This document shows positions 1 to 29,873 of a stretch of 34,571 nucleotides of DNA, piece by piece. The notes below the pieces were generated by a model. That model did not search any database and was not told where the DNA came from. It saw nothing but the letters and a program-made list of their open reading frames with translations. This DNA comes from Hyphomicrobiales bacterium (GTDB lineage: Bacteria > Pseudomonadota > Alphaproteobacteria > Rhizobiales > Xanthobacteraceae), in contig WHTP01000063.1 in assembly GCA_009377695.1 (NCBI GenBank), positions 1-34,571 of the forward strand. Direction: 5' to 3'. Made by a program: the position numbers and the translations under genes. Position 1 is the first letter of the stretch; each line of letters begins with the position of its first letter.

Positions 1-141
1 CCCTTCTCAGCGGGCGACTTTGCGAATGTTAGAATCAAAGGACCACTAGCAAATATAAGCTGCTAGTGGAGTTTTGGATTTGACATTCGCTTTGGGAGTC
101 TGCGGTCAACGGGGTAGCGAATGTCAAATCCACTCCACTAG
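1..141. repeat. Pair of CTAG-ended hairpin repeats, left copy (first unit cut by window edge)
   Basis: Two palindromic units lie head to tail. The first (1-49) is only its right part and ends in CACTAG; a 13-nt AT-rich spacer (50-62) follows; the second is complete (63-141), starting CTAGTGGAG and ending CTCCACTAG. The second unit folds on itself through GGATTTGACATTCGC and its complement. Its left arm carries an extra TTTT next to the terminal stem that is not matched on the right. The whole 141 bp reappears in inverted orientation at 29706-29846 with one mismatch. It sits 78 nt before the UbiD-family gene. Confidence 0.9.
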
Positions 142-27787: not shown

Positions 27788-27862
27788 CGAGTGTCCCGAT
27801 TCCGAAGTTCGTACCATTTTGCGGCGTCCTCCTATACGAACTTCGGAATCGAAGGACACTAG
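27788..27862. repeat. CTAG hairpin repeat, array unit 1
   Basis: 75 bp. Terminal arms CGAGTGTCCC / GGACACTAG (left end degraded), long stem GATTCCGAAGTTCGTA with its complement and a ~20-nt loop. One arm has an extra TT after the terminal stem. A 13-nt spacer follows. Confidence 0.88.
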
Positions 27863-27875
27863 CAACTCATTGAAT

Positions 27876-27954
27876 CTAGTGTGGCTTTGGTTCCGAAGTT
27901 CGCCAGATCTTGCGGCCAGGTTGGAAGCGAACTTCTAAGCCAAAGCCACACTAG
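27876..27954. repeat. CTAG hairpin repeat, array unit 2
   Basis: 79 bp. Ends CTAGTGTGGC / GCCACACTAG; inner arm GAAGTTCG and complement, with some decay just outside it (TTCC on the left against CTTA on the right arm). Its final CTAG is also the first CTAG of unit 3. Confidence 0.88.
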
Positions 27955-28027
27955 TGTCCCGGTTCCGACGCTTGTATCGCTCTTGCCGCACATGCGTTTA
28001 CAAGCGTCGGAACCAAAGGGACACTAG
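27951..28027. repeat. CTAG hairpin repeat, array unit 3
   Basis: 77 bp. Ends CTAGTGTCCC / GGGACACTAG; long arm GGTTCCGACGCTTGTA with exact complement; the extra bases (TTT) occur only on the right arm. A 13-nt spacer (28028-28040) follows. Confidence 0.9.
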
Positions 28028-28040
28028 AAATCATTGATTG

Positions 28041-28119
28041 CTAGTGCGGTTTTGGATTTGACGTTCGTACTGCCGACTCGCAGCAAATACCGGTACGAAC
28101 GTCAAATCCACCGCACTAG
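28041..28119. repeat. CTAG hairpin repeat, array unit 4
   Basis: 79 bp. Ends CTAGTGCGG / CCGCACTAG; long arm GGATTTGACGTTCGTAC with exact complement; the extra TTTT occurs only on the left arm. Its arm is close to that of the unit at 63-141. A 13-nt spacer (28120-28132) follows. Confidence 0.9.
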
Positions 28120-28132
28120 AAAGCCATATGTG

Positions 28133-28199
28133 CTGGTGTCCCTTTAGAATCCGAAGTTCGCGCATCCGCACCTTGCGAACTTCGGATTCGGGCCACCAG
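28133..28199. repeat. CTAG hairpin repeat, array unit 5 (degenerate ends)
   Basis: 67 bp. Ends CTGGTG / CACCAG, so the CTAG has changed on both sides together; long arm GAATCCGAAGTTCGC with complement (AATCCGAAGTTCGC exact), short loop. The remainder, 28200-28329, before pcaB shows no other structure. Confidence 0.8.
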
Positions 28200-28329: not shown

Positions 28330-29709
28330 ATGACCAGTGCCTTGACCCCGTCCTCGCTGCTCACGCCGCTGATCTCGAGCGCAGCCATGCGGGCGATCGT
28401 CGACGACCGCGCCCACCTGCAACGCATGCTGGATTTCGAGTCGGCGTTAGCCCGCGCCGAAGCCGCCGTGGCGGTGGTTCCCGCGGCCTGCGTCGACCCG
28501 ATCGGCGCTGCCTGCAAGGCCGAGCGCTATAACCTCGCGGCGCTGGGCGAGGCCGCCGCACGCGCCGGCAATGTCGCAGGTGCGGTGCTCGCAGCGCTGA
28601 CCGACGAGGTGGCCAAGGCCAATGCTGAGGCCGCTCGCTTCGTGCACTGGGGCGCGACCGCCCAGGACCTCATCGACACTGCACTGATGCTCGAATTGCG
28701 CGCCGGTATCGACGCGCTGCTTGCCGACCTCAACAATGCCATCGACGGCTTCACCGCGATCGCCGGCCGGCAGCGCCGCACGGCCGCGGTGGCGCGCACC
28801 TCGCTGCAGCACACCCTGCCGATGCCGTTCGGGCTCAAACTCGCGGGCTACGCGGCGGCACTGGCGCGGTCACGCGAACGGCTGCGCCGGGTGCGCAAGG
28901 AGGCGCTCGCGCTGCAGTTCGGGGGCGCCGCCGGCACGCTCGCGGCGCTCGGCGAGCACGGCCTCGCGGTCACCGACCGGCTTGCCGCGCTGCTCGACTT
29001 GCCAGCGCCGGACGCACCTTGGCACGCCCACAGCGACCGGCTGGCGGATATCGCATCCGCGCTCGCGATCCTCACCGGCACTTGCGGCAAGATCGCGCGC
29101 GACGTCGCACTGCTGATGCAGACTGAGGTCGGCGAAGCGCAGGAGGCGGCGCGCGCGCCGGCGAACGAGGCGATCGGCTTGCCGCACAAGCGCCAGCCCA
29201 ACGCCGCGGCCGTCGGCATCGCGGCCGCGACGATGGCTCCGAACCTCCTGGCGACGATCATCGCCGGCCAGGTCCAAGAGCATGAGCGCGGCCTGGGCGG
29301 CTGGCAGGCGCAGTGGCATGCCATCCCCGCCCTGCTGCTGGTGACGTCCGGCGCCGTCGCCGCCGTCGCCGAACTTGCGCAAAGCATCGAAATCGATACC
29401 GAGCGTATGCGCAGCAATCTCGACGTCGCGCGTGGCCTGATCATGACCGACGCCATCACGATGGCGCTTGGCGCCAAGGTCGGGCCCTATCAAGCGAAGC
29501 TGATCGTCGAGGAAGCGAGCCGGCAGACTGTCGCCTCCAAGCGCCACCTCAACAGCGTCCTCGCCGAAGACCCGCGCGTGGCCGCGCACATGACGCCGGG
29601 CGAACTCGCCCGCCTGTTCGAGGTGATGGGCCACCAGGGCGTCGCGCAAACCTATATCGACCGTCTTATCGCGTCGGTCGGCGCCCGCATGCCGAAACGG
29701 CCAATCTAG
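28330..29709 (+). CDS. pcaB: 3-carboxy-cis,cis-muconate cycloisomerase-like protein (PcaB)
   Basis: A 459-aa member of the fumarase/aspartase superfamily, PcaB branch: HWGATAQDLIDTALML (106-121), RTSLQHTLPMPFGLKLAGY (156-174), QFGGAAGTLAALG, and the C-terminal PcaB region HLNSVLAEDPRVAAHMTPGEL. PcaB cyclises beta-carboxymuconate in the protocatechuate branch of the beta-ketoadipate pathway; pcaD and pcaC follow, which supports the call. Odd: the signature loop, normally GSSxMPHKRNP, reads EAIGLPHKRQP (280-290), so the usual Ser pair is missing. No clear ribosome site before the ATG at 28330. Confidence 0.87.
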   Translation: MTSALTPSSLLTPLISSAAMRAIVDDRAHLQRMLDFESALARAEAAVAVVPAACVDPIGAACKAERYNLAALGEAAARAGNVAGAVLAALTDEVAKANAEAARFVHWGATAQDLIDTALMLELRAGIDALLADLNNAIDGFTAIAGRQRRTAAVARTSLQHTLPMPFGLKLAGYAAALARSRERLRRVRKEALALQFGGAAGTLAALGEHGLAVTDRLAALLDLPAPDAPWHAHSDRLADIASALAILTGTCGKIARDVALLMQTEVGEAQEAARAPANEAIGLPHKRQPNAAAVGIAAATMAPNLLATIIAGQVQEHERGLGGWQAQWHAIPALLLVTSGAVAAVAELAQSIEIDTERMRSNLDVARGLIMTDAITMALGAKVGPYQAKLIVEEASRQTVASKRHLNSVLAEDPRVAAHMTPGELARLFEVMGHQGVAQTYIDRLIASVGARMPKRPI

Positions 29710-29873
29710 TGGAGTGGATTTGACATTCGCTACCCCGTTGACCGCAGACTCCGAAAGCGAATGTCAAATCCAAAACTCCACTAGCAGCTTATATTTGCTA
29801 GTGGTCCTTTGATTCTAACATTCGCAAAGTCGCCCGCTGAGAAGGGATGCGATTGTTAGAATCGGACCACTAG
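29706..29873. repeat. Pair of CTAG-ended hairpin repeats, right copy
   Basis: Units at 29706-29784 and 29798-29873 with a 13-nt spacer between them. Positions 29706-29846 are the reverse complement of 1-141 with one mismatch. The second unit is complete here: CTAGTGGTCC / GGACCACTAG ends and arm GATTCTAACATTCGC, partly complementary to its right arm. The first CTAG overlaps the pcaB stop codon (TAG at 29707-29709). Lies between pcaB and pcaD. Confidence 0.92.

Follow-up and report, generated by a model that had tools for sequence, protein, structure and literature searches.

What are the CTAG-ended palindromes that stand five in a row between two genes of a Hyphomicrobiales bacterium, and what moves them, if anything does? 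The window (the whole stretch of DNA analysed, 34,571 nt of one contig) belongs to a 5.85-Mb draft genome of 235 contigs that is 95% complete (G000; G-numbers denote the genomes compared, 119 of the same family). CTAG-ended hairpins with matched arms lie in the window at 1-141, 27788-28199 and 29706-29873, and their types are designated P, Q and R. Sequence relationships with insertion sequences of related genomes make it highly probable that these hairpins belong to the IS630/Tc1-mariner family as non-autonomous elements (MITEs), with the pair of hairpins as the mobile unit.

Hairpins of the window

The hairpins and their spacers are arranged as follows.

27788-27862, minus strand: U1, R-type hairpin, GTCC...GATTCCGAAGTTCG arms
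27863-27875, no strand: spacer U1-U2, 13 nt, caactcattgaat, frequent among R pairs
27876-27954, plus strand: U2, R-type hairpin, GTGGC arms, symmetric
27951-28027, minus strand: U3, Q-type hairpin, GTCCC...GGTTCCGACGCTTGTA, AAA bulge on the 3' arm
28028-28040, no strand: Q-pair spacer U3-U4, 13 nt, aaatcattgattg
28041-28119, plus strand: U4, Q-type hairpin, GCGGT...GGATTTGACGTTCGTAC, TTT bulge on the 5' arm
28120-28132, no strand: spacer U4-U5, 13 nt, aaagccatatgtg
28133-28199, plus strand: U5, R-type hairpin, GTCCC...GAATCCGAAGTTCGC, CTGG/CCAG ends, bulge on the 5' arm
29706-29873, plus strand: complete P pair, with hairpin 29706-29784 (GGAGT), spacer 29785-29797 and hairpin 29798-29873 (GGTCC)
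1-141, minus strand: second P pair, cut by the contig end, with partial hairpin 1-49, spacer 50-62 and hairpin 63-141

All five hairpins of the array described in the initial annotation are present and fold as it claimed, as do the further pairs at 1-141 and 29706-29873. The units were said to be bounded by CTAG (CTGG in U5), which applies to U2 to U5 but not to the left end of U1, which reads CGAG. The one-sided bulge is present in U1, U3, U4, U5 and the 29706 pair; U2 lacks it because the TTT/AAA run is present on both of its arms, and is a symmetric form. The spacers U1-U2, U3-U4 and U4-U5 each measure 13 nt, as reported, and a single CTAG (27951-27954) is indeed common to U2 and U3.

Most hairpins comprise a terminal stem of about 10 bp beginning with CTAGTG, a bulge of 2-4 nt on one arm and, beyond the bulge, an inner stem of 15-18 bp enclosing 13-23 nt; the units of the window fold at -37 to -50 kcal/mol (RNA parameters, either strand). 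In most units the bulge is a TTT run, or AAA when the opposite strand is read, and in U1 (on its 3' arm), U3, U4 and the 29706 pair it sits on the arm that faces the spacer. Together with their spacer, U3 and U4 form a complete Q pair with 99% identity to a copy on another contig (C80:12350-12517), and the array can be read as this complete pair amid the R-type hairpins U1, U2 and U5; the U4-U5 spacer may be that of an older pair, split by the insertion of the Q pair. Elsewhere in G000, the hairpin type of U1 is partnered with GTGGC hairpins. The P pair at 29706 has 54 matching stretches in G000, not all of them separate copies, and the 20 listed in full are 97-100% identical. In a further comparison the listed P copies of G000 show 95-99% identity to the pair at 29706, a near-identity that suggests recent activity.

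Abundance and distribution

The initial annotation had proposed a search for further copies in this and related genomes, and these proved numerous. A strict pattern (CTAGTG-N48..78-CACTAG) was counted over 119 genomes of the same family. It has 452 sites in G000 against 50 for the reversed pattern, which is a rough and poor background because the frequencies of CTAG and GATC differ; a better guide is that 60 of the 119 genomes have no site at all. At least one site was found in 59 of the 119 genomes and at least ten in 28, with the highest counts in G065 (848, one contig), G000 (452), G089 and G096 (163 each) and G055 (146). Among the six genomes sampled in the genus of the window, G001, G002 and G006 have 0 sites, G005 has 30, G007 has 94 and G000 has 452.

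The hairpin pair as basic unit

The side of the bulge was classified for 120 hairpins in 400 kb of G065 and 109 hairpins in 362 kb of G000. Wherever a two-hairpin cluster had a spacer and two bulged units, both bulges faced the spacer (14/14 clusters in G065 and 23/23 in G000); the remaining two-hairpin clusters had one symmetric member (one in G065, two in G000) or hairpins sharing a CTAG (one in G065). The basic unit is a pair of hairpins of about 77 nt each, about 13 nt apart, with the bulges facing the spacer. Such a pair is about 168 bp long, including a CTAG on each side, and contains no transposase gene; its spacer is mostly 12-13 nt and alike inside each pair class. Nests also occur, for example of the form hairpin, [pair], 13 nt, hairpin, in which a whole pair lies within the CTAG of another pair and is flanked by CTAG on both sides. 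Pairs insert into CTAG, the CTAGs of other pairs included.

Hairpins also stand alone: of the 53 clusters in G065, 19 consist of one hairpin, as do 15 of the 50 in G000 (34 of 103 altogether), and these single hairpins are mostly bulged (for example, L046 5977-6051 and L057 17391-17467); the movement of pairs alone does not account for them. At three G065 loci (L051 12848-13175, L053 502-833 and L054 17702-18194), pairs are repeated head to tail two to three times with one CTAG per junction, which could be the outcome of repeated insertion or of unequal recombination. Among decayed ends, in the window and at several related loci, CGAG and CTCG recur in place of CTAG, through a change of T to G (27788, L114 at about 9646, L042 7126 and L041 13520).

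Arm covariation and genomic context

Covariation of the arms, noted earlier from the units of the window, extends to a far larger sample. Among 162 distinct hairpins of the 229 scored, namely those with a CTAG start and a 2-4-nt bulge, the rest being left out, Watson-Crick pairs fill 3763 of the 3888 cells of a 24-bp stem. Dealing out the letters of the 3' side anew in 500 shuffles gave 2699 such pairs on average and 2763 at most. In 852 cells, both letters depart from those of the commonest pair. Because the hairpins belong to related families, the shuffle is not a probability and the cell count not a count of events. The initial annotation took compensated change to mean that the fold is selected or was copied as a fold. 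The changes are real, but selection for the fold is not a necessary consequence of them. Each arm resembles a copy of the end to which a transposase binds, and symmetric units such as U2 (10 of the 229 scored hairpins, and U2 of the window besides) suggest occasional copying of one arm onto the other. Since such arm-to-arm copying is possible, covariation alone is no proof of selection on the fold.

These considerations bear on a reading in which the hairpins are RNA structures used by the host, as terminators or mRNA stabilisers, and retained by selection for their fold. Besides covarying arms, it would explain strong hairpins on both strands and their position mostly outside long open reading frames (ORFs): ORFs of at least 200 aa contain only 14 of 103 clusters, yet make up about 80% of the sequence. 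Yet strict-pattern counts range from 0 to 452 inside one genus, insertions are nested and near-identical copies stand at many sites, and Rfam gave 0 matches above the gathering score in the window. These facts point to mobile DNA. We consider the host-RNA reading extremely improbable as a general explanation, although individual hairpin copies may have been co-opted by the host. The hairpins also meet genes at their stop codons. The TAG stop of ORFs of at least 150 aa is supplied by 37 of 188 outer CTAGs of hairpin clusters in G000 and G065, compared with 47 of 450 sides of other CTAGs, and the first CTAG of the P pair (29706-29709) gives the TAG stop of a pcaB-like gene. This excess may reflect the target itself, with its C before a TAG stop, as well as the harmlessness of the site.

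A RAYT gene among other repeats

The initial annotation had likened the hairpins to REP/BIME elements moved by RAYT (Y1) transposases, and their anatomy is REPIN-like in its foot tetranucleotide, asymmetric bulge and inverted pairs. G000 also has one RAYT gene (NF047646 by NCBIfam, E 3.9e-54), but its 3.3-kb locus contains no CTAG hairpin. By eye, GTAGGGTGGGC-type (GTAG-type) repeats lie on either side of it, in the usual layout of REPs and apart from the CTAG hairpins. This gene, at L009:1360-1890 (G000:C25), is the only Y1 gene found in the genome and is flanked, again by eye, by inverted copies of a GTAGGGTGGGCAAAGGCGC repeat.

The comparison across the family does not favour RAYT either. 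Ten or more hairpins are present in 28 family genomes, and 18 of these have no Y1_Tnp match. Y1 genes occur in 31 of the 119 genomes, and their association with hairpin presence (19/31 with Y1_Tnp vs 40/88 without, p = 0.15) is not significant; at three count thresholds p ranges from 0.15 to 0.35, with p = 0.22 at ten or more hairpins. Moreover, the hairpins carry CTAG at both feet, where it is paired, whereas REPs are described with a tag at one foot in the portions of the literature consulted (PMC3733652, PMC6006769), and the outer arms of the CTAG hairpins match the ends of IS630 elements. Movement by RAYT is therefore very unlikely here, and bulged inverted hairpin pairs are not necessarily REPINs.

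IS630 elements whose ends match the hairpin arms

The evidence supports the other proposal of the initial annotation, a MITE that targets CTAG, and points to IS630 as the family that probably mobilises it. Full-length IS630 elements with CTAGTG ends were found in G077, G022, G005 (from the genus of the window), G065, G053 and G121; G055 has one whose gene is interrupted by a stop, and others are present in the named records of Bradyrhizobium vignae, Roseomonas sp. KE2513 and a Rubritepida MAG. All 11 transposases scanned belong to the IS630 family by NCBIfam. In G065, PF13358 (DDE_3) has 34 matches, mostly of three types (A, B and C). Type C ends in CTAGTGTTCCGTCTCGCAAATCAG and CTAGTGTCCTGACTCTCAATTGCC, near the G065 hairpin arms CTAGTGTGGCGTCTCGCAATTGCC and CTAGTGTCCTGTCTCCGAATTACCG; types A and B use the same CTAG target with ends unlike the arms. 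The ends of the G077 element, CTAGTGTCCCGAGTCATAAGTTCGC and CTAGTGTCCTGAACCAGAAGTTCGC, compare with the hairpin arms CTAGTGTCCCGATTCCGAAGTTCGC and CTAGTGCCCTGAACCTGAAGTTCGC of its own genome. A collection of named records gave 80 loci, the best of at least 587, and 24 of these were inspected; 17 had CTAGTG or CTAGTC at both ends, and no hairpins were seen in the flanks of the 24. The best transposase matches in this collection suggest that the family of genomes compared lies near Bradyrhizobium.

End matches were scored over the 19 positions beyond CTAGTG. Against arms from their own genomes, the two ends matched at 16 and 17 positions in G077, 13 and 15 in G065 type C, 14 and 13 in G005, and 12 and 12 in G121; for G022 they matched eight sampled arms at only 10 and 12. 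Just 3-5 hairpins each were sampled from G005, G022, G053, G055, G077 and G121. A pairing of each IS end with one hairpin is clear in G077 only; in G005, both ends prefer the same hairpin. Against 60 G000 arms, taken from 362 kb and the window, with 1000 shuffles per end, the G077, G022, B. vignae, Rubritepida and Roseomonas ends scored 15-18/19 and the G005 ends 14 and 14/19 (p 0.001-0.002 in both cases). The best G000 arm shown was, by eye, the unbulged (outer) one for 15 of 15 related elements.

By hairpin class, R shares terminal inverted repeats with IS630 at 14-18/19 (G077, G022, G005, B. vignae, Rubritepida and Roseomonas). The P class matches G055/G053 ends at 12-13/19 (p 0.003-0.033, or 0.025-0.154 under a wider null), and the same ends match the few arms sampled from those two genomes at 9-10/19. 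For the Q class, no separate IS630 partner was identified among the elements compared. Within the clade, poor matches are given by G116 and G063 (10-12/19, p 0.14-0.37) and by one end each of the G071, G134 and Streptomyces coffeae elements (p 0.116 for the last); the Rhizobium johnstonii (12 and 15/19) and G046 (15 and 13/19) elements are clade members that both match and do not serve as controls.

Several CTAG-using IS630s were rejected as sources of the arms, namely G065 A, G065 B, G091, G071b and G115 (7-11/19, p 0.09-0.97), as was a G077 element ending in CTAGAGCG, which does not match the hairpin arms either. G007 carries DDE_3 genes, and the one with visible ends also terminates in CTAGAGCG.

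Relatives of these IS630 transposases occur in 24 of the 119 family genomes (E <= 1e-30), and at least one hairpin is present in 19 of these 24 genomes, compared with 40 of the 95 without the subfamily (Fisher p = 0.0013); for at least ten hairpins, the figures are 10/24 and 18/95 (p = 0.030), in both cases without control for phylogeny. A transposase gene with matching ends, which the initial annotation had suggested looking for, was thus found in relatives, but G000, despite its 452 hairpins, gave no match to DDE_3 or to a profile of 11 IS630 sequences. Since G000 is in 235 contigs and 95% complete, a repeated insertion sequence could be missing from its assembly; the MITE may have outlived its helper, or the helper may be unassembled. 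We also searched with the profile 12 hairpin-bearing genomes, picked as lacking a match or unlisted in the earlier search for relatives: eight gave no match and four gave weak partial ones (E 5e-9 to 6e-5). G086, with 84 hairpins and one contig, has neither a DDE_3 nor a profile match.

The weak profile matches in G096, G089 and G076 were rejected as IS630, as only their N-terminal part is common with the profile; we take these genes to be IS481-like. They lie between CTAG sites (L255 1360-2403 in G096, L256 947-1978 in G089 and L258 1393-2439 in G076), and the one in L255 adjoins a hairpin.

Target site and empty sites

IS630 reportedly prefers TA in CTAG. We examined 31 IS630 insertions in G065; every copy had to have 90 nt of sequence on either side, and copies with the same flanks were counted once. 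With the duplicated TA collapsed, 28 of them stand at CTAG and the others at CTAA, TTAA and TTAG; these last three are all type A, and the duplication there therefore fits TA only. Hairpin pairs, alone and nested, likewise stand between CTAGs, where duplication of CTAG and of TA are indistinguishable.

In 400 kb of G065, 204 of 279 CTAGs are at hairpin ends, and the other 75 include the ends of IS630 copies. This raises the alternative that IS630 only lands at hairpins, which hold most CTAGs, and that another agent moves them. As this alternative would predict, 21 of the 31 insertions are at a hairpin CTAG, about the expectation for CTAG targeting; IS630 shows no preference for hairpin CTAGs in G065 beyond CTAG itself, and types A and B use the same target although their ends are unlike the hairpins. 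Hairpin abundance accounts for many G065 IS630 copies inside repeats. Landing alone, however, leaves unexplained why the ends of one IS630 clade match the arms over 19 bases beyond CTAGTG, a match that the other CTAG-targeting IS630s (G065 A and B, G091, G071b and G115) lack. We regard it as unlikely.

Related genomes offer views of the loci without hairpins. In G007 the sequence between pcaB and pcaD lacks the P pair, and its flanks join directly, with CTGA against the CTAG of the window. The five-hairpin array, which lies between coxG-like and pcaB-like genes, is absent from G007 and G001. G001 was rejected as an empty site at pcaB-pcaD, about 390 nt of other sequence being present there.

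A model for paired-hairpin movement

IS630 probably moves the paired hairpins, because the outer arms match IS630 ends, the pairs nest in CTAG, genomes with this IS630 subfamily more often have hairpins and G007 has an empty site. Counting against this are the absence of a detected IS630 gene in G000 and the weakness of the P-class matches. Under the IS630 model, the mobile unit would run from outer arm, loop and inner arm through the spacer of about 13 nt to inner arm, loop and outer arm, and the outer arms would be IS630 terminal inverted repeats. A full IS630 element would supply transposase in trans, recognising the outer arms and cutting next to the flanking TAs, as described at TA for ISY100 in the part of the work consulted (PMC2170065). 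The pair would then join the TA inside a new CTAG, and duplication of TA would leave CTAG on both sides. Each end would form a hairpin together with an inverted copy of itself, the inner copy carrying 2-4 extra bases after the first 10 bp or so, between terminus and core; these bases may keep the transposase from using the inner copy and so restrict it to the outer ends. The G000 copies would be stranded, or served by an unassembled helper.

A more specific proposal, which we advance tentatively as somewhat short of an even chance, is that this is a distinct MITE design: IS630 ends are doubled, the inner copy is disabled by the 2-4-nt insertion and the two-hairpin cassette is mobile, while arm-to-arm copying keeps the arms matched; each hairpin class (P, Q, R and one specific to G065) tracks the ends of its own IS630 lineage, and the cassettes, forming most CTAGs of a genome rich in them, become a landing ground for IS630. 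It would offer a testable case of a MITE that doubles its ends without falling apart. More generally, a likely mover can now be named for a very abundant repeat of these bacteria, with up to 848 strict-pattern hairpins per genome.

Comparison with known systems

No account of a paired CTAG-hairpin element was found in the portions consulted of the open-licence PubMed Central literature on IS630/CTAG MITEs and Bradyrhizobium palindromes. RIME1 and Correia/NEMIS were also considered.

The elements resemble several described repeats in part. With REP/REPIN/BIME elements and RAYT, they share bulged inverted hairpin pairs, a foot tetranucleotide, high copy number and intergenic position, but REPs, in the excerpts consulted, have a GTAG-type tag at one foot and lie around RAYT genes (PMC3733652, PMC6006769), and the window hairpins do neither. 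Br-REP1 and Br-REP2 belong to a probably related bacterium, Bradyrhizobium japonicum; they too are palindromic and intergenic, and Br-REP1 lies within three consecutive stem-loops, as far as the consulted text goes (PMC5082802). Their consensus nevertheless differs (CCGGAATCTCGAGATTCCGG for Br-REP1), and 'ctag' is absent from the main text of that article (PMC5082802). MITEPsy1 of Pseudomonas syringae is, like the window pairs, a small MITE inserted at CTAG (or YTAA), but according to the sections consulted it has ISPsy2-like (IS5-family) ends, is a single 100-nt element and makes a 4-nt duplication (PMC3189936).

The closest parallels lie within the IS630 family. The elements probably share the transposase family, and may share the TA duplication, of IS630 and ISY100, in the part of the source consulted (PMC2170065), but, unlike these, carry no gene. 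RUP of Streptococcus pneumoniae, reported in the consulted part of its description as 107 bp long, with 108 copies and one pair of ends, is a short, gene-less intergenic repeat with ends matching those of IS630-Spn1 and insertion at TA (PMC2229807); the window elements are likewise short, gene-less and intergenic, have ends that match an IS630 element and may also insert at TA. They differ from RUP in that doubling turns each end into a hairpin and sets two hairpins opposite each other, in their CTAG target and in number, with 452 and 848 hairpins per genome in G000 and G065 against the 108 copies of RUP. The paired-hairpin elements are most probably a variant of RUP/IS630-type MITEs.
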